Shown: positions 23,016 to 46,975 of the stretch, piece after piece
Position numbering within the stretch: the first letter of the stretch is position 1
How the letters are laid out: every line of letters starts with the position of its first letter
From: Streptococcus pneumoniae
GTDB taxonomy: Bacteria > Bacillota > Bacilli > Lactobacillales > Streptococcaceae
DNA: 64,000 bases
Assembly: GCF_001457635.1 (NCBI RefSeq)
Contig: NZ_LN831051.1
Location: 930,001 to 994,000, forward strand
Direction of reading: 5' to 3'
Program-made: the position numbers and the translations under genes
Notes under the pieces: generated by a model
Told to the model about the DNA's origin: nothing
Databases searched by the model: none
What the model saw: only the letters and a program-made list of their open reading frames with translations

Positions 23016-23044
23016 TTTACAATACGTGTAACACGTGTTATAAT
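23016..23044 (+). promoter_or_regulatory. hicAB promoter with palindromic operator
   Basis: TTTACA (23016-23021) and TATAAT (23039-23044) have a 17-base spacer that contains the palindrome ACGTGT-A-ACACGT (23024-23036). A repressor bound there would block RNA polymerase. This is as expected for autoregulation by HicB or the HicAB complex. Confidence 0.75.
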
Positions 23045-23075
23045 GGTGTTGTCAGGAGGTAAAAGCGCTATACCT

Positions 23076-23249
23076 ATGACACAAAAAGAGATGGTTAAAC
23101 TCCTTACGGCCCATGGTTGGATAAAGACTAGAGGCGGTAAAGGCTCCCATATTAAAATCGAGAAGCAAGGGGAAAGACCTATCACAATCCTTCATGGTGA
23201 GCTGAATAAGTACACTGAAAGAGGGATAGGAAAGCAAGCTGGGTTGTAA
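23076..23249 (+). CDS. hicA: HicA family mRNA interferase toxin
   Basis: This 57-residue toxin has a double-stranded-RNA-binding-like fold. The family's catalytic histidine is seen in GGKGSHIKI, with the typical opening MTQKEMVKLLTAHGWIKTR and end HGELNKYTERGIGKQAGL. HicA cleaves mRNA when free of HicB. I chose ATG 23076. The upstream ATG at 23043 would overlap the promoter -10 box, although CAGGAGGT (23053-23060) is rather far from 23076. The antitoxin gene follows after 36 bases. Confidence 0.9.
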   Translation: MTQKEMVKLLTAHGWIKTRGGKGSHIKIEKQGERPITILHGELNKYTERGIGKQAGL

Positions 23250-23285
23250 AATTCAGTCCCTGCTTTTTGATATGGAGGTAGTGAA

Positions 23286-23738
23286 ATGTTAGTTACGTAT
23301 CCAGCTTTATTTTATTATGACGACACAGACGGAACAGAAGCGACTTATTTTGTCCATTTCCCAGATTTTGAATACTCAGCTACACAAGGAGAGGGGATTT
23401 CTGAGGCTTTGGCTATGGGGTCGGAGTGGCTAGGGATAACTGTTGCAGATTTGATAGAGAGTGATGGAGAGTTACCTCAGCCATCAGATATCAATAGCTT
23501 GTCTTTAATTGATAATGATCCTTTTAAAGATGATGAAGATTTCGTGTCAACCTATGACCTTGATAAATCTTTTATTTCTATGGTATCTGTTGATGTATCA
23601 GAATACCTAGGAAGTCAGGAACCCATTAAAAAGACTTTGACTATACCAAAATGGGCAGATAAGTTGGGACGAGAAATGGGACTTAACTTTTCTCAGACTT
23701 TGACAGACGCTATTGCAGATAAGAAAGTTCAAGCCTAA
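23286..23738 (+). CDS. hicB: HicB family antitoxin
   Basis: This 150-residue antitoxin has an N-terminal partial RNase H-like domain (MLVTYPALFYYDDT, FVHFPDFEYSATQGE) that binds HicA. A C-terminal DNA-binding region follows, KKTLTIPKWADKLGREMGLNF with QTLTDAIADKK, of ribbon-helix-helix type. A TATGGAGG site precedes the start. Toxin-first order is normal for hicAB. It probably represses its own promoter through the palindrome at 23024-23036. Confidence 0.9.
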   Translation: MLVTYPALFYYDDTDGTEATYFVHFPDFEYSATQGEGISEALAMGSEWLGITVADLIESDGELPQPSDINSLSLIDNDPFKDDEDFVSTYDLDKSFISMVSVDVSEYLGSQEPIKKTLTIPKWADKLGREMGLNFSQTLTDAIADKKVQA

Positions 23739-24028: not shown

Positions 24029-24499
24029 ATGGCAACATACGGATTTTTAGATGTTTTAGAGGAAGAGTTGGACAAGAACTTTCCCTTTGACTTTGAGATT
24101 AGCTGGGACAAACGCAACCATGCGGTAGAAGTGAGTTTTCTATTGGAAGCGCAAAATGCTGCAGGTGTGGAGATGGTGGATGAAGACGGAGAGGTTTCAT
24201 CAGATGACATTCTTTTTGAGGAAGCGGTCCTTTTCTACAATCCTGCCAAGTCAACAGTCAATGAGGAAGACTATTTGACTGTTATTCCTTACCTGCCTAA
24301 AAAAGGATTTTCCCGTGAATTTTTAGCTTATTTTGCGCTTTTCCTTAAAGATACTGCTGAGGTTGGGCTAGATGCCCTCATGGACTTTTTGGAAGATCCA
24401 GAAGCAGAGGAATTTGTTATGGAATGGAATCAAGAAGTCTTTGAAGAAGGAAAAGTTGGCTTGGAAGAGGGAGAATTTTACCCTTATCCAAAATACTAG
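24029..24499 (+). CDS. DUF3013 family protein
   Basis: This 156-residue acidic soluble protein begins MATYGFLDVLEEELDKNFPF, which I recognise as the streptococcal DUF3013 family; its function is unknown. It has no signal peptide or membrane segment. An AAGAGG site precedes the start. It is followed after 18 bases by a membrane protease-like gene, so the two probably form an operon from the extended -10 promoter. Confidence 0.85.
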   Translation: MATYGFLDVLEEELDKNFPFDFEISWDKRNHAVEVSFLLEAQNAAGVEMVDEDGEVSSDDILFEEAVLFYNPAKSTVNEEDYLTVIPYLPKKGFSREFLAYFALFLKDTAEVGLDALMDFLEDPEAEEFVMEWNQEVFEEGKVGLEEGEFYPYPKY

Positions 24500-24517
24500 G
24501 AGTTGGTTGGAGGTGTT

Positions 24518-25606
24518 ATGAAGAAAATTGGGACTTATTTGGTTTATGTGCTAGCTGTTGTCTTTATTATGCTAGCTTTTGCTTGTGGAACAATCGCATT
24601 TGCAGAGTTGGGGTATTCCGCAGTTTTAGCCTTTACTTTTGGTTATGCCTTCGCTCTTCTAAGCATGTATTTAATCTTTATTCTTCATGAGCTGGGTCAT
24701 GCTTTTTGTGGCTACTTGACAGGCTATCAGCTGGTGGCTTTTGGATTAGGACATTTTATTTTGACAAAAAAGTCAGGCAGGTTTCATCTTAGTAGAACAG
24801 CCATTCTGAAAAATGTTGGTGCTCAATACATTGGTTTAAAAGAGGATGAAAGCGATCAAAGAATCATCCTGATGCTTTCAGGAGGCTTGATGGTTCATCT
24901 CGGCTTGATATTATTGGCGATAGTGTTTGGATTTTTGACAAGAAGCTGGTATTTTGCAGGGACTTGGATTTTTCTTAATTTATCTTTCTTCCTAAATAAC
25001 ATTTTACCAGTCGGCATCACCGATGGAGCAAAAATTTGGGAATTACTACAACACCCTGAAAATACCAAATACGCCTACCTGGTATTGAGACATTCTGCTC
25101 AAACTTTGCTGGCTCCTCAAGAATATGATTTGAAAGACTTTGTTCAAGCAGTTCCTGAGGATGCACGAGGGAGTTTTGCGGATGGTGTATTAGGTATGCA
25201 AGGTGAAGTTTCCATTTTGGAAGGGAAGGAAGAAGTAGCTAAACAGCAGTTTCAAGCATTACTTGAGAGGACAACTACTCCGATGATGCAGACAGTTGCC
25301 CAACTATCCCTACTTCATATCGCCTTGTTGGAAGGAGATTTTGAGCAAGCGGAGCAATATGCTAGTATTCGACAGGTCAAATCGTTTCTGTCTCTCAAAC
25401 TGTCCAATCTTCAAGTGATACAAGCCTGGTATCAATTAAAGGTGAAGAAAGATGTAGATCGAACTCGTAAGGCTCTCAAGATTGCTAGACAGAAAATGGA
25501 TAGTAGTCGAATGTTGAGGGACGAGAAACGCTATTATGAAAACTTGTTAGCAGAGCTGGAAAAGGAAATGTTAGAAGGAACTGAAGATGGAACTAGAAAT
25601 TTCTGA
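24518..25606 (+). CDS. Membrane protein with M50-like HELGH zinc metalloprotease motif
   Basis: This 362-residue protein has two hydrophobic segments at residues ~5-55, then HELGH at 57-61 at the membrane edge, as in site-2-type intramembrane proteases. A further membrane pair (~130-170) is followed by NNILPVGITDGAK, where family members carry a third zinc ligand (usually Asp). The C-terminal ~180 residues are soluble and repeat-like (TPR-like helices). The start is ATG 24518 with GGAGG upstream; the TTG at 24503 is rejected. Its end overlaps the truncated NUDIX gene by 20 bases. The substrate is unknown. Confidence 0.75.
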   Translation: MKKIGTYLVYVLAVVFIMLAFACGTIAFAELGYSAVLAFTFGYAFALLSMYLIFILHELGHAFCGYLTGYQLVAFGLGHFILTKKSGRFHLSRTAILKNVGAQYIGLKEDESDQRIILMLSGGLMVHLGLILLAIVFGFLTRSWYFAGTWIFLNLSFFLNNILPVGITDGAKIWELLQHPENTKYAYLVLRHSAQTLLAPQEYDLKDFVQAVPEDARGSFADGVLGMQGEVSILEGKEEVAKQQFQALLERTTTPMMQTVAQLSLLHIALLEGDFEQAEQYASIRQVKSFLSLKLSNLQVIQAWYQLKVKKDVDRTRKALKIARQKMDSSRMLRDEKRYYENLLAELEKEMLEGTEDGTRNF

Positions 25607-25745
25607 TTTCCCAGGCTGTAAGATTGCTTTGTTTTGTGGGGATAAGCTTTTGACTATCTTACGCGATGATAAGGCAAGCATTCCCTGGGCCAATATGTGG
25701 GAACTGCCAGGTGGGGGAAAGAGTGTCAGGGAAAATCTGATATAG
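25587..25745 (+). pseudogene. NUDIX hydrolase (MutT-like), truncated by insertion
   Basis: Only 52 codons remain. The text ends inside the Nudix box: MWELPGGGKSVRENLI then TAG, where intact proteins continue through the REXXEE helix that binds the metal and carries catalysis. The catalytic half is therefore missing and the protein cannot work. The gene overlaps the upstream protease gene, as an operon member would. The inserted AAA/subtilase/AbiH cassette begins within about 110 bases, and no remaining 3' part of the NUDIX gene is found before prmA. Confidence 0.85.
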
Positions 25746-25854
25746 TTTTGCATTAAAAGAATATCCTTTCAAGGTTATTCTTTTTTAATTTTGTCCCAAA
25801 ATAATTTACTTTGTCCGGAAAATATAGTATTATTTGTATAAGGAGGAATGAATC

Positions 25855-26889
25855 ATGAAAAAATCAGATGTTCTTGATTTAATAAAGTATCATTATGAGG
25901 GCAGAGAGACAGAATTTAGAAATCAATCCATAGCAATTGCTCGGAACTTCAATAAACATGGTGATACACAAATAGCACAATATATTATGGGGTTAATGTC
26001 TCAAAGTGATAGATTCATGCCACAAATAGAAAATCCTAGTGAGTATTTGACTCCTGCTAAACTAGATATTGGTCCTCTCCCATTGCCTCTTTCAATTATG
26101 AATGATTTAAAAGGAATAATAAACGCTGTCAATCATCATATTGGAATAAATAAATTTTTATTTGTGGGATCTCCAGGTACTGGAAAAACTGAAAGTGTAA
26201 AGCAGGTGGCTAGACTTATTGGCAAGGAATTACTTGTAGTAGATTTCAGTCACTTAGTAGATAGTAAGCTAGGGCAAACAGTCAAAAACTTAGCAACTCT
26301 TTTTAATGAAATCAATAATCTTCCTTTCAAGCAAAATTATATCATCCTATTTGATGAAATTGATTCCATAGTGTTGGATAGGGTTAATCAGAATGATTTA
26401 AGAGAAATGGGACGAGTGACTTCTGCCTTTTTAAAGGAGTTGGATAGGCTGTCACCAGAAATTGTATTAATTGCAACAACAAATCTTTTTGAAAATCTTG
26501 ATAAAGCAGTTACGAGAAGATTCGATGCCATAATTGACTTTGACCGTTATACTGATGAAGATAAAGTAGAAGTAGCTACTATTATTTTAAATGAGTTATT
26601 AAAGCAATTTAAGAATGTAGCTAGAGATTTAAAATTATTTAAAAAAATTATCAATAGTGCCAATGTAATACCGAATCCTGGTGATTTGAGAAACTCAATA
26701 AGAACGTCATTGGCATTTAGTGATCCATCAGATCCGCATGATTACCAAAAACGCCTGCTAAGAAGTTTGCATAATGGTAGAAATTTATCTATTTCTAAAT
26801 TATCGAAGCTAGGTTTTACTGTTAGAGAAATTGAGATTTTGACAGGTGTTTCTAAGAGTAGTGTATCACGAGAGTTAAGCGAGGATTAA
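25855..26889 (+). CDS. AAA+ ATPase, IetA-like component of a two-gene defence system
   Basis: This 344-residue AAA+ ATPase has Walker A GSPGTGKT (105-112), Walker B ILFDEID (164-170), sensor 1 IATTN (206-210) and arginine finger RRFD (221-224). The C-terminus ends in a helix-turn-helix-like stretch (VREIEILTGVSKSSVSREL), possibly for DNA binding. It is followed one base later by a subtilase, the pairing of the IetAS system. IetAS was first described in plasmid incompatibility and later shown to protect against phage. An AAGGAGG site precedes the ATG. A TATAGTATTATTTG stretch at 25825-25838 may be promoter. Base composition is A+T-rich and distinct from flanking housekeeping genes. Confidence 0.85.
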   Translation: MKKSDVLDLIKYHYEGRETEFRNQSIAIARNFNKHGDTQIAQYIMGLMSQSDRFMPQIENPSEYLTPAKLDIGPLPLPLSIMNDLKGIINAVNHHIGINKFLFVGSPGTGKTESVKQVARLIGKELLVVDFSHLVDSKLGQTVKNLATLFNEINNLPFKQNYIILFDEIDSIVLDRVNQNDLREMGRVTSAFLKELDRLSPEIVLIATTNLFENLDKAVTRRFDAIIDFDRYTDEDKVEVATIILNELLKQFKNVARDLKLFKKIINSANVIPNPGDLRNSIRTSLAFSDPSDPHDYQKRLLRSLHNGRNLSISKLSKLGFTVREIEILTGVSKSSVSRELSED

Positions 26890-26890
26890 A

Positions 26891-29134
26891 ATGAATACAT
26901 TATTGACATTACGAGGTAAAAGCTTTACACAAAAATCAAGAAATAATGGTATGGGACCAATAACTATACCCAAAAAAACAATAATTACATTGGAACATTT
27001 GAAGTATCTTCATTTTTCATTAGAAGAGACGAAAACATATTGGGAGAAAAATAACATTATCGATGGTATTTTGATCAGTATTTACTATAATCGAATTGTT
27101 GCCAAAAGTAACCGTATTAATGGCTATTTCAATGTAGGAGGAGGGAATCCATTCCCTAATGATACTATTGTGGGAGCAAAATTCAATGATGAGAAGACAA
27201 AACATATTGTTACTCATTATATTTCTAGAGATGCTCTTAATAAAACAATAACCGTTTTAAGTAAGATAATTGAAGTTTTTGAGGAACATTTTGATAGAGC
27301 GATAACATGTGAGATGTTTTCTGATTCATCAACGTTTGCTTCTATAAATTTTTCGGAGTATGGTATTTCAAAAAGCAAATTTCAACAGTATTTGAGAGAT
27401 TCTTGCTTTATTGAGAATTTTGGAGTTGAGCACACTACTGTTTCTGATATTCAAAATTCTATCGTGACATTTTATGATGTCCATACAGACATTTTTAGAT
27501 TACTGAATAAATTAAATATTGATATTTCAGAAGCTAATATCATGAATCAGACCACGGTCTTGCTTGATGAAAAAAATATTGAATTACTACTATCAAAAGC
27601 GCCCTATCTTGTCTCCATGATTGTGGAAGATTTTTCTAAGTTATCTGTAGATGATTTTTCTTTAGATAATAATGATTTAAAAATAAATCTTCCATCTCCA
27701 ATGAACGAACCAGTTGTTGGCGTTATTGATACCTTATTTGACAAAAGAGTTTACTTTAATGAGTGGGTAGAATATCATGATTTTGTCTCACCTGATATTA
27801 GCAAAGATAGCCAAGATTACAAGCATGGGACAGCTGTGACTTCTTTAATCGTTGATGGAGCCAATTTGAACCCTAATCTGGATGATGGTTGTGGAAATTT
27901 TAGAGTGAGGCATTTTGGTGTGTCACTACAAAGTGGATTTAATTCATTTACAATCATAAAACAGATAAAAGAGATTGTTTCTCAGAATGCTGATATTAAG
28001 GTTTGGAATCTTTCTTTAGGGTCCAATGATGAAATAAGAGAAAATTTTATCTCTGCAGAGGGAGCATTATTAGACGAAATTCAATTTGAGAATGATGTAA
28101 TTTTTATCATAGCTGGGACAAATGCTTCAGTAATAAATGGGAAACGCAAAAGAATAGGTGCTCCTGCTGATTCACTTAATTCTATAATAGTAAATTCTGT
28201 TGATTTTAATAATCAATCAGTGTCATATTCACGAGAGGGTATTGTTTTATCATTCTTTGTTAAACCAGATGTGTCATATTATGGAGGAGGAAATGGTGAC
28301 TTTATAAATGTTTGTGAACCTCTAGGATTAGGTCGTGTAGCTGGAACAAGTTTTGCGGCACCTTTTATTGCAAGGAAAATGGCCTATCTCATTCATATTA
28401 TGGGACTTAGCCGAGAAGAAGCGAAGGCTTTGCTAATTGATGCAGCAATACCCTGGAATGATAAGAAAACATTCACTGATTTATCTTTGATAGGAAATGG
28501 TATTGTTCCAATAAAAATGGATGATATTTTATCTACACCTGATGATGAAATTAAATTTATTGTGTCAGATATCTCTAGGGCTTATGATACCTATAATTAT
28601 GATTTTCCAGTACCTATTTCTAGTGAGAGTTATCCATATGTAGCTAAAGCAACAATGTGTTATTTCCCTAACTGCTCAAGAAAACAAGGGGTTGATTATA
28701 CAAATACTGAGATGCAGCTTACTTTTGGTAGGTTAAAGTCAGACGGTATCAAATCGATAAATAAAGACAACCAGCATGCCGAAGATTCCCCAGGATATGT
28801 GAGAGAAAATGCTGCTAGAAATATATTTAGGAAATGGGATAATGTCAAGCATATTGGAGAGTCGTTTACTTCTCGAAAGAGAGCTAAAGCAATTTTAAAT
28901 CCATCTAATCCTCAGTGGGGGATGAGTATTAAAACAATCGAACGTTTGAAAAGCGGTGATGGACAAGGAGTACGTTTTGGTGTAGTAGTTACATTAAAAG
29001 AATTAAATGGGGTTAATCGTATTGAAGATTTTATTCAGCAAGCTGAATTACGCGGTTGGCTAGTTAATAGATTGCAAGTAGAAGCTCAAGTAGACCTCTT
29101 TAATAGTTTAAATGAAGAAATTGAATTTGAATAG
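26891..29134 (+). CDS. Subtilisin-like serine protease (S8), IetS-like component
   Basis: This 747-residue cytosolic subtilase has a complete catalytic triad: D280 in VVGVIDT, H312 in KHGTAV and S487 in GTSFAAP; the oxyanion Asn lies in IIAGTNAS. A ~270-residue N-terminal region and a ~230-residue C-terminal region of unknown fold flank it. There is no signal peptide, so it acts inside the cell, consistent with defence rather than nutrition. It starts one base after the AAA ATPase stop, so the pair is coupled. By analogy with IetAS, the ATPase probably senses the invader and controls the protease. Confidence 0.87.
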   Translation: MNTLLTLRGKSFTQKSRNNGMGPITIPKKTIITLEHLKYLHFSLEETKTYWEKNNIIDGILISIYYNRIVAKSNRINGYFNVGGGNPFPNDTIVGAKFNDEKTKHIVTHYISRDALNKTITVLSKIIEVFEEHFDRAITCEMFSDSSTFASINFSEYGISKSKFQQYLRDSCFIENFGVEHTTVSDIQNSIVTFYDVHTDIFRLLNKLNIDISEANIMNQTTVLLDEKNIELLLSKAPYLVSMIVEDFSKLSVDDFSLDNNDLKINLPSPMNEPVVGVIDTLFDKRVYFNEWVEYHDFVSPDISKDSQDYKHGTAVTSLIVDGANLNPNLDDGCGNFRVRHFGVSLQSGFNSFTIIKQIKEIVSQNADIKVWNLSLGSNDEIRENFISAEGALLDEIQFENDVIFIIAGTNASVINGKRKRIGAPADSLNSIIVNSVDFNNQSVSYSREGIVLSFFVKPDVSYYGGGNGDFINVCEPLGLGRVAGTSFAAPFIARKMAYLIHIMGLSREEAKALLIDAAIPWNDKKTFTDLSLIGNGIVPIKMDDILSTPDDEIKFIVSDISRAYDTYNYDFPVPISSESYPYVAKATMCYFPNCSRKQGVDYTNTEMQLTFGRLKSDGIKSINKDNQHAEDSPGYVRENAARNIFRKWDNVKHIGESFTSRKRAKAILNPSNPQWGMSIKTIERLKSGDGQGVRFGVVVTLKELNGVNRIEDFIQQAELRGWLVNRLQVEAQVDLFNSLNEEIEFE

Positions 29135-29184
29135 TGGATATTTTATCCTTATTTTAGATCTTAGGAACACAAGAGGGCAAAGAT

Positions 29185-30204
29185 ATGAATATTACTTATA
29201 TAGTTGGAAATGGTTTGGATTTGCAATATGGTTTGAAAACAAGATATAGGGATTTCTACGAATTCCAAAATAAGGTTTATATAAGTAGGACAGAGAACGA
29301 GGAAAAATATTCAAATTTCATTTATGAGTCTCTATTTTCTGATAAAGTAAATGATTATGAAAATTGGTCAGATTTTGAATTGTCAATTGGTAAATTAACA
29401 AAAGATAACGACCTCATCTCCTCAAGTATAGAAATAAAGGAGAAATTTATAGATGATTTTAGTGAAGTAGTTGATGATTTAAGAGAATATCTACGCATAC
29501 AACAAGAAAAAAATCTTGAGAAAGGTAATGCAATTGACTTTATAAGCACTCTAGATAATATGAGGACCTCTCTCCCTGTAATTAATCAACCTGCTATCGA
29601 TAAAAAATATAATGAAAATCTATATTAACACGATATCGTGAATATATTAACTCTTAATTACACAAATGTAATCGATAAATTATATAATGAGTCAGCAAAA
29701 TCATTTAGCAATCAATTACGAACTAATAATTATAAATTTCACATTGCGCCTCCAATTCATGCACATGGAACGGTAGATATTTGCACAGTTTTAGGAGTTA
29801 GTGACGAGACACAGATTTCAAATAGTTTTGATGAAGAACAAAAAGAATCCTTAATAAAAAATTTAGTTTTGAAGAACTATAGAGAAAATATGGATGTTAA
29901 AAATAGCGATATTATAAAAAATTCTGACATCATAATTCTTTATGGGGTTTCTTTGGGAGAGACTGATGGGTATATCTGGAATCAGATTGCTGAACAATCA
30001 ATCAGAAGTTCTGTTCCTGTCATAATTTACCATTATGTACCTCATTTTGATGCAGGAAACCCCACTAGAGTAAAACGCTTATATAGAAATGTAGAAGACA
30101 AATTCATACAAAATAGTGGAATTGATTTAGAGTTAGAGAAGAAATTAAGAGATAACCTTATTGTTGTTATTGGAAAGACTATTTTTAATCTGATGGAAAG
30201 GTAA
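29185..30204 (+). pseudogene. AbiH-like abortive infection protein with one in-frame stop
   Basis: The frame reads as a single 339-codon protein. It opens with MNITYIVGNGLDLQYGLKT and YRDFYEF (the AbiH family nucleotide-binding-like start), and has LTLNYTNVIDKLY in the middle and IILYGVSLGETDGYIW near the end. A TAA at 29626-29628 splits it into 147 codons and a continuation from GTG 29638 in the same frame, so a point change rather than an indel caused the break. A ribosome site (GAGGGC) precedes the start but none precedes 29638. It belongs to the same inserted cassette as the IetAS-like pair. Whether read-through or two polypeptides give function is unknown. Confidence 0.8.
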
Positions 30205-30216
30205 GCAAAATACATA

Positions 30217-31167
30217 ATGGAAACATGGCAAGAGTTAAAAGTTACAGTGAAGCGTGAGGGAGAGGAGTTGGTTTCCAATCTCTTGATTGAGTTAGGTGCC
30301 CAAGGGGTAGCAATTGAAGACAGCATGGACTATGTGGGAAATGTGGACCGATTCGGTGAAATTTTCCCAGAGGTGGAGCAACAGGAAGAAATCGTAGTGA
30401 CCGCCTACTACCCTGAAACGGTTGATGTAGCAGCAGTTGAAGCGGATTTGCAGGCTCGTCTGGCAGAATTGACCGACTTTATGGACCTAGGAGAAGTCAA
30501 GATGGGCACGACTGCCTTGACTGAGGAAGACTGGGCTGACAACTGGAAGAAGTATTATGAACCGGCACGCATCACCCATGACCTGACCATCGTACCGTCA
30601 TGGACGGACTATGAGGCAACAGCAGGAGAAAAGATTATCAAGCTGGATCCTGGTATGGCCTTTGGGACAGGGACCCACCCAACAACCAAGATGAGCCTCT
30701 TTGCCTTGGAACAGGTTCTTCGTGGTGGCGAAACAGTGCTAGATGTAGGGACTGGTTCAGGGGTTCTTTCTATTGCAAGCTCACTCCTAGGTGCCAAGGA
30801 GATTTTCGCCTATGACTTGGATGATGTGGCGGTTCGTGTCGCTCAGGAAAATATTGAGCTCAACACTGGTATGGAAAATATCCATGTAGCAGCAGGAGAT
30901 TTGCTTAAGGGTGTGGAAATTGAGGCAGATGTGATTGTGGCTAATATCTTGGCGGATATCCTCATTCATCTAATAGACGATGCCTATCGTTTGGTCAAGG
31001 ATGAAGGCTACCTCATCATGAGTGGCATTATCAAGGACAAGTGGGACATGGTGCGCCAGTCGGCTGAGTCAGCTGGATTTTTCCTCGAAACTCACATGGT
31101 TCAAGGGGAATGGAATACCTGTGTCTTTAAGAAAACCAAGGATATCTCTGGTGTGATTGGAGGCTAG
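30217..31167 (+). CDS. prmA: Ribosomal protein L11 methyltransferase
   Basis: This 316-residue SAM-dependent methyltransferase trimethylates ribosomal protein L11. Start [17 protein letters not shown] and the N-terminal L11-recognition domain are typical. The SAM site is [15 protein letters not shown] (~170-184), followed by [13 protein letters not shown] and [10 protein letters not shown] (NPPF-equivalent). Codon use and G+C rise sharply compared with the preceding cassette, marking the right edge of the insertion near 30205-30216. Confidence 0.96.
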
Positions 31168-38217: not shown

Positions 38218-38256
38218 AAAAAGCCTTGCTCCTCATCTTGAGGAACAGGGCTTTTT
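38218..38256 (+). terminator. Intrinsic terminator after the aquaporin gene
   Basis: AAAAAGCC...GGGCTTTTT forms a long stem with internal pairing (CTCCTCA/TTGAGGA), 10 bases after the stop, ending in a T-tract. Confidence 0.85.
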
Positions 38257-38262
38257 CGTATG

Positions 38263-38638
38263 ATACTCTTCGAAAATCTCTTCAAACCACGTCAGCTTCA
38301 CCTTGCCGTAGGTATGGTTACTGACTTCGTCAGTTCTATCCACAACCTCAAAACAGTGTTTTGATCTGACTTCGTCAGTTCTATCTGCAACCTCAAAACA
38401 GTGTTTTAAGCTGACTTCGTCAGTTCTATCTGCAACCTCAAAACAGTGTTTTGATCTGACTTCGTCAGTTCTATCTGCAATCTCAAAGCAGTGTTTTGAT
38501 CTGACTTCGTCAGTTCTATCTGCAACCTCAAAACGGTGTTTTGATCTGACTTCGTCAGTTTCATCTACAACCTCAAAACACTGCTTTGAGCAACCTGCGG
38601 CTAACTTCCTAGTTTGCTCTTTGATTTTCATTGAGTAT
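38263..38638. repeat. BOX element: boxA, six boxB, boxC
   Basis: The element runs from ATACTCTTCGAAAATC to TTGATTTTCATTGAGTAT, with mirrored ends. boxA is 38263-38320 (CACGTCAGC, CTTGCCGTAG). boxB repeats six times with a strict 45-base period starting at 38321, 38366, 38411, 38456, 38501 and 38546, each opening CTGACTTCGTCAG, itself a small palindrome. boxC is 38591-38638. Most BOX copies have one or two boxB units, so this is an expanded copy. It lies between the terminator of the aquaporin gene and the 3' end of the que chimera. Confidence 0.93.
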
Positions 38639-38642
38639 GACT

Positions 38643-39176
38643 TTAGCGGTTGTCAATTTTCTCTGGATAAAGGTCGTGTTGGAAGAGGCGTTGTTCTGCC
38701 AAGCCCTCATACTTAGTTCCTTGCTTACCGTAGTTATAGTAGGGGTCGATTGAAATGCCACCGCGCGGAGTGAATTTTCCCCAGACTTCTAAATAGCGAG
38801 GGTCTAGCAAGTTGACCAAGTCTTTCCCGATGGTGTTGATACAGTTTTCGTGGAAATCTCCGTGGTTTCGGTAGATAAATAGATATAGTTTGAGGGATTT
38901 TGACTCGACACAGAGCTTGTCAGGAATGTAGGAAATATGAATCGTCGCAAAGTCTGGCTGAGCAGTGATTTGTCCCAGCAGAGACATATCGAGGATATGG
39001 TGACGAATGCCCTGTTCCTTAGCGATTTCTCTAGTAATTTGAATTTCGAGGTGATGACGTTGGCCGTAGGCAAAGGTGACAGCTTCGACTGTTTCATAGT
39101 GTTGCATGACCCAGAAAAGGCAGGTTGTTGAATCTTGACCACCACTAAAGACGACCAAGGCTGATTGATGTTTCAT
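38643..39176 (-). pseudogene. QueC-QueF chimera left by a deletion in the queuosine pathway operon
   Basis: The 177-residue frame is open but composite. Residues 1-~70 are the N-terminus of QueC (7-cyano-7-deazaguanine synthase), with PP-loop SGGQDS at 11-16. Residues ~73-177 are the C-terminal two thirds of QueF (preQ0 reductase): [33 protein letters not shown] and [19 protein letters not shown]. The junction is near GQITAQPDF. QueC's later zinc-binding cysteines are lost, as is QueF's catalytic cysteine, which should lie just before the QPDF. Genes expected between them (queD, queE) are gone, so neither activity is likely. ATG 39176 has AAGGAGT upstream. Confidence 0.82.
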
Positions 39177-39213
39177 AGTACTCCTTCCAAAATGGGAAAT
39201 GTTCAGAGCACGC

Positions 39214-39284
39214 AAAAAGCTCCCATTAGGGAGCTAAAAAATACCAAATCGAGTTTTTTTAGCGATGGCATATCCCAAACATCG
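39214..39284 (-). promoter_or_regulatory. Leader with terminator hairpin and possible preQ1-type aptamer upstream of the que chimera
   Basis: On the minus strand, AGCTCCC TAAT GGGAGCT followed by five T (39214-39235) is an intrinsic terminator, about 38 bases before the start codon. Just upstream, CGATG/CATCG (39263-39284) forms a 5-bp stem over a 12-base loop and is followed by an A-rich tail (CTAAAAAAACTCG), a layout like class-I preQ1 riboswitches. The terminator is clear; the aptamer is a suggestion from layout and gene context. Confidence 0.4.
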
Positions 39285-40782: not shown

Positions 40783-41354
40783 ATGGCATATAGTACTGAT
40801 TTTAAACAGCGAGCATTAGATTCCATCAAAGAGGGGCACAGACATGTCGAGGCGGCCAAAGTTTTTGATGTTGGCGCCAAAACTCTCTTCACGTGGGAAA
40901 AGAAAGACGTGAACAAAGGAACTTAGAGCGGAAAAAGCGAGTCGTCAAAAAGCGTAAGATCCCTTTAGAAGAATTGAAAGCCTTTGTAGAGGCTCATCCA
41001 GACGCTTTTTTACGGGAAATTGCGGCCCGTTTTGATTGTGCTTTGCCCTCCGTATGGACAGTTTTAAAGCAGATTAAGGTCATTTTAAAAAAGACGGCCA
41101 GTTTTAGGGAACAAAAGCCTGAGAAAGTTTCTGAGTTTCTTGATATTTTGGATAACCTAAAAGATTTACCAGTCCTATATATTGACGAAACGGGAATCAA
41201 CCGCTACCTCTATCGTCCTTATGCAGGGGCTCCTAGAGGGGAGAAAGTCTATGACAAGATTAGCGGACGGCGTTTTGAGCGGACTAATGAGGTGGAGCAA
41301 AAACTCAATGGTAGTTTTCTAATCAGATATATTGATTCACAAATTAGAGAATGA
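40783..41354 (+). pseudogene. IS630-Spn1-type transposase remnant
   Basis: ATG 40783 opens MAYSTDFKQRALDSIKEGHR with a helix-turn-helix (VEAAKVFDVGAKTLFTWEKK) and then loses frame. The continuation in another frame (RKIPLEELKAFVEAHPDAFL, LREIAARFDCALPSVWTVLK, VLYIDETGINRYLYRPYAG) carries the first catalytic Asp-Glu region of IS630 transposases, then breaks off with the rest missing. It is dead. IS630-Spn1 is the proposed mobiliser of RUP elements, of which three copies are in this window. Confidence 0.85.
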
Positions 41355-41596: not shown

Positions 41597-44500
41597 ATAT
41601 TTTTTAGACGTCAGAAGGGTGAATATAGAGAAACAGACCGAGTAACTCGGTTCAAATTAATCAAATCAGGGAAGCATTGGCTACGGGCCTCGACTTCTCT
41701 TTTTGGCTTGTTTAAGGTCTTGCGAGGTGGTGTTGATACTACTCAGGTCGTGACCGAAACGGTAGAAGATAAAGTAAGTCATTCAATTACTGGGCTTGAT
41801 ATCCTCAAGGGGATAGTTGCTGCGGGAACTGTCATAAGTGGAACCGTTGCAACTCAAACGAAGGTATTTACAAATGAGTCAGCAGTACTTGAAAAAACTG
41901 TAGAGAAAACGGATGCTTTGGCAACAAATGGTACAGTAGTTCTAGGTACGATATCTACAAGTAATTCAGCGAGTTCAACTAGTTTGTCAGCTTCAGAGTC
42001 GGCAAGTACATCTGCATCTGAGTCAGCCTCAACCAGCGCTTCGACCTCAGCGAGTACAAGTGCATCAGAATCAGCAAGTACATCGGATTCGACAAGTATC
42101 TCTGCATCATCTACTGTGGTAGGATCACAAACAGCTGCCGCTACAGAAGCAACTGCTAAGAAGGTCGAAGAAGATCGTAAGAAACCAGCTAGTGATTATG
42201 CAGCATCAGTTACAAATGTCAATCTCCAATCTTATGCTAAGCGACGCAAGCGTTCAGTGGATTCCATCGAGCAATTGCTGGCTTCTATAAATGCTGCTGT
42301 TTTTTCTGGCAATACGACTGTAAATGGCGCCCCTGCAATTAATGCAAGTCTAAATATTGCTAAAAGTGAGACAAAAGTTTATACAGGTGAAGGTGTAGAT
42401 TCGGTATATCGTGTTCCAATTTACTATCAATTGACAGTGATAAATGATGGTTCAAAATTGACCTTTACCTATACGGTTACGTATGTGAATCCTACAACAA
42501 AGACTCTTGGTAGTATATCAAGGATGAGTAATGGATATTCTATCTATAATTCAGGTACTTCAATACAAACAATGTTAACCCTTGGCAGTGGTCTTGGTAA
42601 ACCTTCAGGTGTAAAGAACTACATTACTGACAAAAATGGTAGACAGGTTCGATCCTATAATACATCTACAATGACGACGCATGGTAGTGGGTATACTTGG
42701 GGAAATGGTGCCCAAATGAATGGTTTCTTTGCTAAGCAAGGATATGGATTAACATCATCTTGGACTGTACCAATTAATGGAACGGATACATCCTTTACAT
42801 TTACCCCTTACGCTGCTAGAACAGATAGAATTGGAATTAACTACTTCAATGGTGGAGGAAAGGTAGTTGAATCTAGCACGACCAGTCAGTCACTTTCACA
42901 GTCTAAGTCACTCTCAGTAAGTGCTAGTCAAAGCGCCTCGGCTTCAGCGTCAACGAGTGCCTCAGCATCAGCAAGTACCAGTGCGTCAGCCTCAGCAAGC
43001 ACCAGTGCATCAGCCTCAGCAAGTACAAGCGCCTCAGCTTCAGCATCAACGAGTGCTTCGGCTTCAGCGTCAACCAGTGCGTCTGAATCGGCCTCAACCA
43101 GTGCTTCGGCTTCAGCCTCAACCAGCGCAAGTACGTCAGCGTCAACGAGTGCCTCAGCTTCAGCATCAATAAGTGCGTCGGCTTCAGCAAGTACCAGCGC
43201 CTCGGCTTCATCAAGCACATCAGCATCTGAATCAGCGTCAACGAGTGCTTCAGTCTCAGCATCGACAAGCGCTTCAGCTTCAGCAAGTACCTCAGCGTCT
43301 GAATCGGCCTCAACAAGTGCATCGGCTTCAGCAAGCACAAGCGCCTCAGCCTCAGCAAGCACAAGCGCCTCAGCTTCAGCAAGTATCTCAGCGTCTGAAT
43401 CGGCATCAACGAGTGCCTCTGAATCGGCATCAACCAGTGCATCAGCCTCTGCAAGTACCAGTGCGTCAGCTTCAGCATCAACGAGTGCGTCGGCTTCCGC
43501 ATCAACCAGTGCGTCGGCTTCCGCATCAACAAGCGCCTCGGCTTCAGCAAGCACAAGTGCGTCAGTCTCAGCATCAACGAGTGCGTCAGCTTCAGCAAGC
43601 ACCTCAGCGTCTGAATCTGCATCGACAAGCGCCTCGGCTTCAGCGTCAACGAGTGCGTCGGCTTCAGCAAGTACCAGTGCGTCAGCTTCAGCAAGCACCT
43701 CAGCGTCTGAATCTGCATCGACAAGCGCCTCGGCTTCAGCGTCAACGAGTGCGTCGGCTTCAGCAAGTACCAGTGCGTCAGCTTCAGCAAGCACCTCAGC
43801 GTCTGAATCTGCATCGACAAGCGCTTCAGCTTCAGCATCAACGAGTGCGTCGGCTTCAGCAAGTACAAGTGCCTCTGAATCGGCATCAACCAGTGCTTCA
43901 GCCTCAGCATCGACAAGCGCTTCGGCTTCAGCAAGTACAAGTGCGTCTGAGTCAGCATCAACAAGTGCGTCTGAATCCGCATCAACGTCTGCCTCAGCCT
44001 CAGCGTCAACCAGTGCCTCAGCCTCAGCATCGACAAGCGCCTCAGCTTCAGCAAGCACAAGTGCATCAGCTTCAGCAAGCACAAGTGCATCAGCTTCAGC
44101 AAGCACAAGCGCCTCAGCTTCAGCGTCAACAAGTGCGTCAGCTTCCGCATCAACGAGTGCCTCTGAATCGGCATCAACGAGTGCCTCTGAATCTGCATCA
44201 ACCAGTGCATCAGCCTCTGCAAGTACCAGTGCGTCAGCTTCAGCATCAACGAGTGCGTCGGCTTCCGCATCAACCAGTGCGTCGGCTTCCGCATCAACAA
44301 GCGCCTCGGCTTCAGCAAGCACAAGTGCGTCAGTCTCAGCATCAACGAGTGCGTCAGCTTCAGCAAGCACCTCAGCGTCTGAATCTGCATCGACAAGCGC
44401 CTCGGCTTCAGCGTCAACGAGTGCGTCGGCTTCAGCAAGTACCAGTGCATCAGCCTCTGCAAGCACAAGTGCTTCAGTCTCAGCATCAACCAGTGCGTCA

Positions 44501-46975
44501 GCTTCAGCGTCAACGAGTGCGTCAGCTTCAGCAAGCACCTCAGCGTCTGAATCTGCATCGACAAGCGCCTCGGCTTCAGCGTCAACGAGTGCGTCGGCTT
44601 CAGCAAGTACCAGTGCATCAGCCTCTGCAAGCACAAGTGCTTCAGTCTCAGCATCAACCAGTGCGTCAGCTTCAGCGTCAACGAGTGCGTCGGCTTCTGC
44701 AAGCACAAGCGCCTCGGCTTCCGCATCAACGAGTGCCTCAGCTTCAGCATCAACGAGTGCGTCAGCTTCAGCGTCAACGAGTGCGTCTGAGTCAGCATCG
44801 ACAAGCGCTTCAGCTTCAGCATCAACGAGTGCGTCGGCTTCAGCAAGTACAAGTGCCTCTGAATCGGCATCAACCAGTGCTTCAGCCTCAGCATCGACAA
44901 GCGCTTCGGCTTCAGCAAGTATCTCAGCGTCTGAATCGGCATCAACGAGTGCGTCAGCCTCAGCAAGTACTAGTGCATCAGCTTCAGCATCAACAAGCGC
45001 CTCAGCTTCAGCATCAACCAGTGCATCGGCTTCAGCATCAACAAGTGCCTCGGCTTCAGCGTCAACGAGTGCGTCTGAGTCAGCATCAACGAGTGCGTCA
45101 GCCTCAGCAAGCACATCAGCTTCTGAATCTGCATCAACCAGTGCGTCAGCCTCAGCATCGACAAGCGCCTCAGCTTCAGCAAGTACCAGTGCTTCGGCTT
45201 CCGCATCAACCAGTGCTTCAGCCTCAGCATCGACAAGCGCTTCAGCTTCAGCGTCGACAAGTGCTTCAGCCTCAGCATCGACAAGCGCTTCAGCTTCAGC
45301 ATCAACAAGTGCCTCGGCTTCAGCATCAACAAGTGCCTCGGCTTCAGCATCAACGAGTGCTTCAGCTTCAGCATCAACAAGTGCTTCAGCTTCAGCAAGT
45401 ACCAGTGCGTCGGCTTCAGCATCAACGAGTGCTTCAGTCTCAGCGTCAACCAGTGCCTCTGAATCCGCATCAACCAGTGCCTCGGCTTCAGCAAGCACCA
45501 GTGCTTCGGCTTCAGCAAGTACTAGCGCCTCAGCCTCAGCATCAACCAGTGCATCAGCCTCAGCAAGTATCTCAGCGTCTGAATCGGCATCAACGAGTGC
45601 GTCAGTCTCAGCATCAACGAGTGCCTCGGCTTCAGCAAGTACCAGTGCGTCAGCTTCAGCAAGCACAAGTGCTTCAGTCTCAGCGTCAACGAGTGCTTCG
45701 GCTTCAGCAAGTACCAGTGCGTCAGCTTCAGCAAGTACCAGTGCGTCAGCCTCAGCAAGTACTAGTGCATCAGCTTCAGCATCAACGAGTGCTTCGGCTT
45801 CAGCAAGTACAAGTGCCTCAGCTTCAGCAAGTACCAGTGCGTCAGCTTCAGCCTCAACAAGCGCCTCAGCTTCAGCATCAACAAGTGCATCGGCTTCAGC
45901 ATCAACGAGTGCGTCAGCCTCAGCAAGCACATCAGCTTCTGAATCTGCATCAACCAGTGCGTCAGCCTCAGCAAGTACCAGTGCATCAGAGTCAGCAAGT
46001 ACCAGTGCGTCAGCTTCAGCGTCAACGAGTGCGTCAGCCTCAGCAAGCACCTCAGCGTCTGAATCGGCATCAACAAGTGCGTCGGCCTCAGCAAGTACCA
46101 GTGCCTCATCCTCAGCAAGCACAAGTGCCTCAGCTTCAGCAAGTACAAGCGCCTCAGCCTCAGCCTCGACAAGTGCTTCGGCTTCAGCAAGCACAAGCGC
46201 CTCATCCTCAGCAAGCACAAGTGCCTCAGCTTCAGCAAGTACAAGTGCGTCAACCTCAGCATCAACCAGTGCTTCGGCTTCAGCAGGTAAGTCAAGACAG
46301 CAATTGCCAAATACAGGTACAGAAGTTTCCAAGTCATCTGTAGCAAGTATCTCAGCGTCTGAATCGGCATCAACGAGTGCGTCAGCCTCAGCAAGTACTA
46401 GTGCATCAGCTTCAGCAAGCACCAGTGCGTCAGCTTCCGCATCAACGAGTGCGTCCGCTTCAGCAAGCACAAGTGCGTCAGCCTCAGCAAGTACCAGTGC
46501 ATCAGAGTCAGCAAGTACCAGTGCGTCAGCTTCCGCATCAACGAGTGCGTCCGCTTCAGCAAGCACAAGTGCCTCAGCCTCAGCAAGTACCAGTGCATCA
46601 GAGTCAGCAAGTACCAGTGCGTCAGCTTCAGCGTCAACCAGCGCCTCAGCCTCAGCAAGTACCAGTGCTTCGGCCTCAGCATCGACCAGTGCGTCAGCCT
46701 CAGCAAGTACCTCAGCGTCTGAATCAGCATCAACCAGTGCCTCAGCTTCAGCGTCGACAAGTGCGTCAGCTTCAGCAAGTACCTCAGTTTCAAATTCAGC
46801 AAACCATTCGAACTCACAAGTTGGAAATACTTCTGGATCGACAGGTAAATCCCAAAAAGAATTGCCTAATACAGGTACTGAGTCGTCAATTGGATCTGTG
46901 TTACTTGGAGTTCTAGCAGCTGTTACAGGTATTGGATTGGTTGCGAAACGCCGTAAACGTGATGAAGAAGAGTAA
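41597..46975 (+). CDS. psrP: Serine-rich repeat glycoprotein adhesin PsrP (short allele)
   Basis: This is the surface adhesin of the accessory Sec system. The frame carries a KxYKxGKxW signal peptide ([18 protein letters not shown]), a short serine repeat (SRR1, ~residues 110-165), a basic binding region (~170-430) that in PsrP binds keratin-10 and DNA, a long SASASTSA repeat region (SRR2, ~430-1730), and a sortase signal LPNTG (46862-46876) with hydrophobic helix and KRRKRDEEE tail. The family's start position here is ATA (41597) with GAAAGGAAA upstream; the first normal start codons in frame are TTG 41708 and a later GTG, both inside the signal peptide. A second LPNTG lies at 46304-46318. 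About 1792 residues is much shorter than the >4000 I recall for TIGR4. Confidence 0.93.

Follow-up and report, generated by a model that had tools for sequence, protein, structure and literature searches.

The locus described here has several close relatives among described systems. Cis-mobilizable elements (CIMEs) are remnants of integrative conjugative elements (ICEs) that are flanked by the attachment ends attL and attR. IetAS, an AAA+ ATPase gene followed by an S8 subtilase gene, is reported by Gao et al. 2020 to protect against phage, and the family names used by PADLOC and NCBIfam reflect this antiphage role. According to excerpts of the respective papers, sgiAT is a toxin-antitoxin (TA) pair that helps to keep SGI1 and is compared by its authors to IetA/IetS of pTiC58 (PMC5006074), the mycoplasma ATPase/subtilase pair TA132/3 is a functional TA module (PMC8562856), and ietAS is named among the systems of Streptococcus suis (PMC12479173). 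Excerpts likewise describe streptococcal ICEs that carry serine-integrase triplets, have 2-8 bp repeats and target mutT (PMC4701971), and name mutT and the ADP-ribose pyrophosphatase gene as ICE sites, the latter in S. suis (PMC7168690). The DNA analysed is a window of 64,000 nucleotides from Streptococcus pneumoniae (contig NZ_LN831051.1, positions 930,001 to 994,000 of the forward strand), whose genome (G000) is a single contig of 2.11 Mb; in this window an ietAS pair lies inside mutT and is followed by a broken abiH and by prmA. Among the literature matches listed, at the level of titles and abstracts, no description of a mutT/ietAS locus was found.

Insertion of ietAS in the Nudix box of mutT

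The mutT of the window starts at 25587 and ends after 52 codons, its stop standing right after the GGG that opens the Nudix box; an earlier, sequence-only reading of this DNA had correctly placed the end of the gene inside the catalytic box. Homology to intact mutT (L070, L080, L064 and L095; blastn) ends at 25718, or at 25717 for two of the references. Intact relatives continue GGGREGDESPFECVAREVYEELEI past the break point, and in the window the last mutT codons and the stop, to 25745, are supplied by the inserted sequence. ietAS landed inside mutT, at its Nudix box, and not at the mutT-prmA junction that had been proposed as the insertion site.

The same left junction of mutT and ietAS is found in G044, G229 and L144, the named records being an S. 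mitis isolate (L144), S. mitis 1001175st1_H6 (L146, taken as G044) and a record labelled S. pneumoniae 19F (L147, taken as G229); as it is shared with further genomes, the junction of the window is more than chance. The comparison set comprised 284 congeneric genomes, one per species, and its frequencies are thus between, not within, species. A 163-bp junction query matched 44 of them, at full length only G044 and G229 besides G000 itself, the other 41 matching over 79 bases or fewer. The genes are far from fixed in relatives, IetS occurring in 13 of the 284 genomes and at mutT in 3. In G229 the order is mutT (codons 1-50), ietA, ietS, a small open reading frame (ORF) and mutT (43-138), with GTGGA at both ends of the insert, so that both halves of mutT are kept around it; the window keeps the left half only. 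A second, intact mutT lies with other genes between the ietAS locus and prmA in G229, so the sequence-only reading's own counter-case, an intact mutT in a strain with the cassette, is seen there by half, with one copy cut and one intact.

The right end of the G229 insert matches that of an ICE family. A right-end profile was built from 10 distinct ICE ends obtained by a motif search over 22 recombinase loci, with the ietAS end excluded and loci or ends without the motif left out. It scored 25.2 bits exactly at the ietAS/mutT junction of G229, with 7.0 at the next place in this 22-kb locus, and 20 mononucleotide shuffles gave maxima with a mean of 9.7 and a highest value of 16.2. ICEs of this kind sit at the same mutT codons in relatives: in G211 a single contig carries mutT 1-43 and, ~76 kb away, mutT 42-138, with three serine-recombinase frames at the right end (523, 538 and 482 aa; Pfam domains of this kind in the latter two, the first judged by eye), in G142 the mutT pieces are ~65 kb apart, and a recombinase gene abuts mutT codon 43 in both G012 and G142. 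The 482-aa recombinase of G211 has matches at E <1e-100 in 21 of the 284 genomes (22 loci), while G000 has no match to it at E 1e-100. At the left arm, the core followed by six bases and TGTCA is found in ietAS, G211 and G012. Several elements of the recombinase family abut the Nudix boxes of other NUDIX genes (right ends L333-L354; frames read by eye); where the recombinases are more distant (42-46%), the neighbours are other genes (seven loci, again read by eye). The target may be the Nudix box rather than one gene.

The explanation we consider quite probable is that ietAS is the stranded cargo of a Nudix-box-targeting serine-integrase ICE, that the window copy became joined to an abiH-prmA allele, and that the pair is an addiction/abortive-infection module. 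An integrative conjugative (or mobilizable) element with a serine-integrase set targeting Nudix boxes would have carried ietAS into mutT; what is seen of this is the insertion within mutT, the ICE-family right end in G229 and the ICEs at the same codons in relatives. Its integrase and conjugation genes would then have been lost, so that ~3.8 kb remained, as in G229, and homologous recombination through the flanks, probably via natural transformation, may have spread this remnant. In the lineage of the window, recombination presumably joined ietAS to the abiH-prmA allele, deleting attR and the 3' half of mutT.

Several observations weigh against this explanation. The best right-end scores elsewhere (9.7 and 9.5 in the window, 12.1 in L144, 11.4 in G044) all lie within the shuffle range and none at a junction; since only G229 scores there, attR survives in one of the four ietAS copies. 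The left arms of ietAS and of the full ICEs share TGTCA at equal spacing only and otherwise differ. In G012 the presumed left piece of mutT lies on the opposite strand, ~115 kb away, and thus only G211 and G142 are simple cases of a split mutT. A full ICE carrying ietAS at mutT was not found among the 284 genomes, the left end occurring only in G000, G044 and G229. Finally, the pair misses the NCBIfam equivalog cut-offs widely (IteA 103.3 against 510 bits, IteS 147.7 against 900 bits), and is therefore a divergent member of the family, not an equivalog.

The pair, its maintenance and competing explanations

That the pair is IetAS-like was already seen by the sequence-only reading, and holds: ietA and ietS are adjacent, one nucleotide apart, in the order ATPase then subtilase, with open frames, the expected domains and matches to both PADLOC models (Table 1). 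Both genes are open in the window, G044, G229 and L144, and D280, H312 and S487 of IetS are invariant in an alignment of 10 sequences. Over 20 ietA or ietS pairs, S. suis included, dN/dS is 0.04-0.27 with 18 values at or below 0.11; for ietA the range is 0.04-0.27 (10 pairs; the 0.27 stems from a pair with dS 0.019) and for ietS 0.05-0.19 (10 pairs). From these values both genes look maintained by selection. As a single sequence IetS found no relative in the PDB, and as a profile it found two subtilases there at E about 7e-5. The IetS protein search scored 7998 candidates, 7461 of them with E up to 0.001; the closest named relatives among the 120 matches listed are S. pneumoniae proteins (91%), and relatives in plasmid (49) and phage (11) records are all under 60% identity. 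A Candidatus Saccharibacteria record (OX335598.1; L145, 8970-12241) also has ietAS, with an IetS 85% identical and a disrupted ietA, surrounded by what look like ribosomal-protein genes; it may reflect inter-phylum exchange or raise an assembly question.

By analogy with its described relatives, ietAS most likely works as an addiction/abortive-infection unit, in which IetS would be a protease harmful to the cell and IetA the ATPase that restrains it, so that infection or loss of the locus would free the protease. Such addictiveness is proposed as the reason why the pair would have outlived the decay of its element. It is somewhat unlikely that ietAS is kept purely as an addiction module with no phage protection. 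The relatives do act as TA pairs in the excerpts cited above (sgiAT stabilises SGI1, PMC5006074; TA132/3, PMC8562856), but the family is an antiphage one in PADLOC, the same interval houses other defence genes, and the exchange of ietS alleles described below is more in keeping with an arms race than with addiction alone.

Between the window and G044, dS is 0.042 for ietA and 1.88, near saturation, for ietS. Two classes of ietS are seen, one in the window and L144 (dS 0.064) and one in G044 and G229 (dS 0.074), and identity between the window and G044 drops at the ietA/ietS border and recovers in the last part of ietS; the divergence reflects recombination, not drift. On these comparisons, ietS is swapped between two allele classes while ietA is near-constant, though not wholly uniform, as the L144 ietA has a divergent patch near 26650-26950 with dS about 0.2 to the others. 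The swap points to IetS as the part on which diversifying pressure acts. A further possibility, which we regard as rather unlikely, is that the Nudix box hosts a minimal, possibly re-mobilizable element consisting of attachment ends and an addiction/antiphage pair, moved in trans by resident ICEs of the same family, with the protease swapped under a near-constant ATPase. If true, streptococci would have an antiphage unit whose protease specificity can be exchanged, lodged at a common docking site before prmA.

It is quite unlikely that the locus as a whole is a relic in decay that no longer has a function: abiH and mutT are indeed broken, no recombinase-like ORF of at least 100 aa was read in the interval, and ietA is disrupted in the Saccharibacteria relative, but both genes are open in four copies, the dN/dS values are low and the catalytic residues of IetS are kept. 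That ietAS entered mutT through ordinary recombination, homologous or illegitimate, and that the attR likeness in G229 is an accident, is very unlikely. Much of the interval does vary with no recombinase in view, attR stands in one copy of four and the left arm resembles known ICE ends only weakly; against this, the right-end score falls at the exact junction and exceeds every shuffle, and ICEs or their recombinases occupy the same codons in G211, G012 and G142.

The abiH-prmA allele

The gene after ietAS is AbiH-like, as had been read, but a stop was missed: an in-frame TAA at codon 148 (29626) splits it into 147 and 188 aa, both of which match PF14253 (59.9 and 50.6 bits; cut-off 30.9). Intact relatives have 338-339 aa. 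The stop is at codon 148 in the window and 106 in G044, and abiH is intact in L144, which also has ietAS; the breaks look recent, as dN/dS remains at 0.12-0.18 even with broken copies included (15 pairs, stop codons left out). Homology to mutT-abiH-prmA loci resumes at 29179, and in four genomes (G079, G061, G117 and G233) mutT and abiH are both intact, stand before prmA and are not separated by ietAS. Since homology ends at 25718 and resumes at 29179, and such ietAS-free loci exist, ietAS and abiH arrived separately. A sequence resembling an attR remnant just before abiH (ACAAGAGGG) was rejected, its G044 copy scoring 5.0 bits and the place being absent from the four best of the window; the AGAGGG before abiH may be a ribosome binding site.

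AbiH matches occur in 26 of the 284 genomes, 10 scoring above 400 bits and the rest, among the matches listed, at or below 40 bits. All 10 of the former directly precede prmA (G079, G233, G044, G000, G061, G117, G217, G023, G074 and G121), and as 4 of these carriers are not members of the mitis group (identity to the queries 57-61% for abiH and 75-78% for prmA), the abiH-prmA linkage looks old. Close AbiH homologues (to 29185-30204; L308, L317-L320) precede prmA in and outside the mitis group. That IetAS and AbiH form one mobile defence cassette inserting at the mutT-prmA junction, as the sequence-only reading had it, is highly improbable, for although the window, G044 and L144 have both side by side, the four genomes above combine abiH with an intact mutT and no ietAS, G229 has ietAS but no abiH, and the abiH stops of the window and G044 lie at different codons.

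The variable interval and the locus among known systems

A prmA match was present in 283 of the 284 genomes; in the 129 whose prmA exceeds 90% identity, the stretch between the DUF3013 gene and prmA was surveyed, with the window itself standing for G000. The 127 loci with DUF3013 in reach hold 34 gene-order strings (30 if four split-hit or ORF-length variants are merged), and mutT stands alone in 10. Recognised defence genes are present in 14 of the 129 loci: ietAS in G000, G044 and G229; abiH in G000, G044, G079, G233, G117 and G061; NsnABC in G276 and G205, with pieces in G108; an AbiP2/DRT-type reverse transcriptase with a 4TM effector in G215; an ApeA-like HEPN protein in G207 and G250; and a type IIG enzyme in G089. 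Loci of the defence genes other than ietAS and abiH are L253, L277, L287, L300 and L055. PADLOC was run on one representative per defence module, with G205, G108 and G250 assigned by sequence likeness; the common modules (GNAT, M50 and the 133-, 180- and 299-aa proteins) stood outside that run and were checked against Pfam, and the count leaves out a 771-aa ATPase of G225 that matches DruC weakly (E 8e-4). G108 (L041, L115) has, on a different contig, a second prmA fragment that follows a large open frame starting with masked letters. In the control interval between MgsA and DUF3013 (126 genomes) the median length is 115 bp and the ORFs fall into 9 families; for DUF3013-prmA the figures are 1,691 bp and 18, the families being coarse single-linkage groups. 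With 34 gene orders but defence genes in only 14 of 129 loci, gene content indicates an exchange site which defence genes can enter, and not a defence island as such; the mutT-only loci and other defence modules are what the interval comparison suggested by the sequence-only reading brought out.

An intact mutT, defined as a Nudix-box pattern in a frame of at least 110 aa, is present in 118 of the 129 loci; of the 11 without one, the window included, G038 and G266 still have a near full-length match by translated search. The sequence-only reading held that a mutator-avoidance gene had been removed. The mutT copy is cut, yet a mutator-avoidance role for it is unproven: with two MutT equivalog models the intact homologue reaches 31.0 against 148 and 25.6 against 97.9 bits, and the genome has seven other NUDIX genes. 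The test is a weak one, because the NUDIX protein at 1561139-1561519, which presumably corresponds to pneumococcal MutX, also falls under the cut-offs (32.5 and 30 bits).

The features of the locus are collected in Table 1. GC content is 0.27-0.35 over 25.75-30.2 kb, 0.47-0.51 in prmA and 0.34-0.42 directly before the interval, so that the contrast is sharp toward prmA and milder at the other side; the foreign composition ascribed to the three genes thus stands on the right but is less marked on the left, and prmA starts at 30217. A terminator-like hairpin noted by eye after the truncated mutT was rejected, as a scan of 25600-30300 found none, and promoter-like sites in the same range are at shuffle level (25 against a mean of 23.6). 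Overall, the observation of the locus made from the sequence alone is partly confirmed, and its interpretation partly supported.

Table 1. Coordinates of the mutT-ietAS-abiH-prmA locus and its flanks in the window
Feature	Position	Strand	Basis or remark
DUF3013 gene	24029..24499	+	PF11217; left conserved flank of the variable interval; present in 127/129 loci
M50 peptidase gene	24503..25606	+	PF02163; one variable module of the interval
Truncated mutT (NUDIX)	25587..25745	+	Translation; blastn homology to intact mutT stops at 25718
Attachment-core position, Nudix-box glycine codons	25714..25718	+	Sequence comparison
Insert left end	25719..25783	+	TGTCA six bases past the core, as in two full ICEs
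ietAS module common to the S. suis copy located elsewhere	25784..29133	+	blastn to L109
ietA-like AAA+ ATPase, 344 aa, open frame	25855..26889	+	PF00004 E 8e-26; PADLOC IetA E 2.3e-36
ietS-like S8 subtilase, 747 aa, open frame	26891..29134	+	PF00082 E 3.2e-32; PADLOC IetS E 1.5e-60
Junction segment, ietS to abiH-prmA allele	29135..29178	+	No attR-like score in profile scan
abiH pseudogene	29185..30204	+	In-frame TAA at 29626-29628; PF14253
prmA, right conserved flank	30217..31167	+	PF06325 E 3.2e-107

Elsewhere in the window, a HicA/HicB pair lies at 23043-23738, between mgsA and DUF3013, and a 150-aa ORF family that is probably the HicB of this pair is present in 14 of 126 relatives. At 38233-39215 a queC-like frame looks cut short and is followed by an ORF of near-identical repeats (by look), and what looks like a transposase fragment at 40893-41354 lies upstream of a large serine-repeat protein (41708-46975).

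In this locus the passage from ICE cargo to a chromosomal defence gene left stranded can be traced in steps: full ICEs in the site, a remnant that keeps an attachment end and has mutT at either side, and copies lacking the right side. It raises the testable question of whether antiphage pairs persist in the ruins of ICEs because they are addictive, protective or both, and the interval before prmA is a small, well-marked place in which to seek defence genes in mitis-group streptococci.

All parts of the locus are of known kinds. The pair resembles pTiC58 IetAS, SGI1 sgiAT and TA132/3 in its adjacent ATPase and S8 genes and its PADLOC matches; it differs from known IetAS in falling under the NCBIfam equivalog cut-offs, in its place inside a streptococcal Nudix gene and in the exchange of streptococcal ietS between allele classes. 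The abiH fragments are like AbiH (PF14253) in that both exceed the cut-off, and unlike it in that the window copy is broken and its close homologues are tied to prmA. With the mutT ICEs, as given in excerpts of PMC4701971, the locus shares the target gene, a short repeat and, in G229, the same right-end sequence, whereas the G229 insert is only ~3.8 kb and no integrase or conjugation gene was read in it. The G229 locus resembles a CIME in having a left end, cargo and attR with no integrase; the window copy departs from this in having lost attR.

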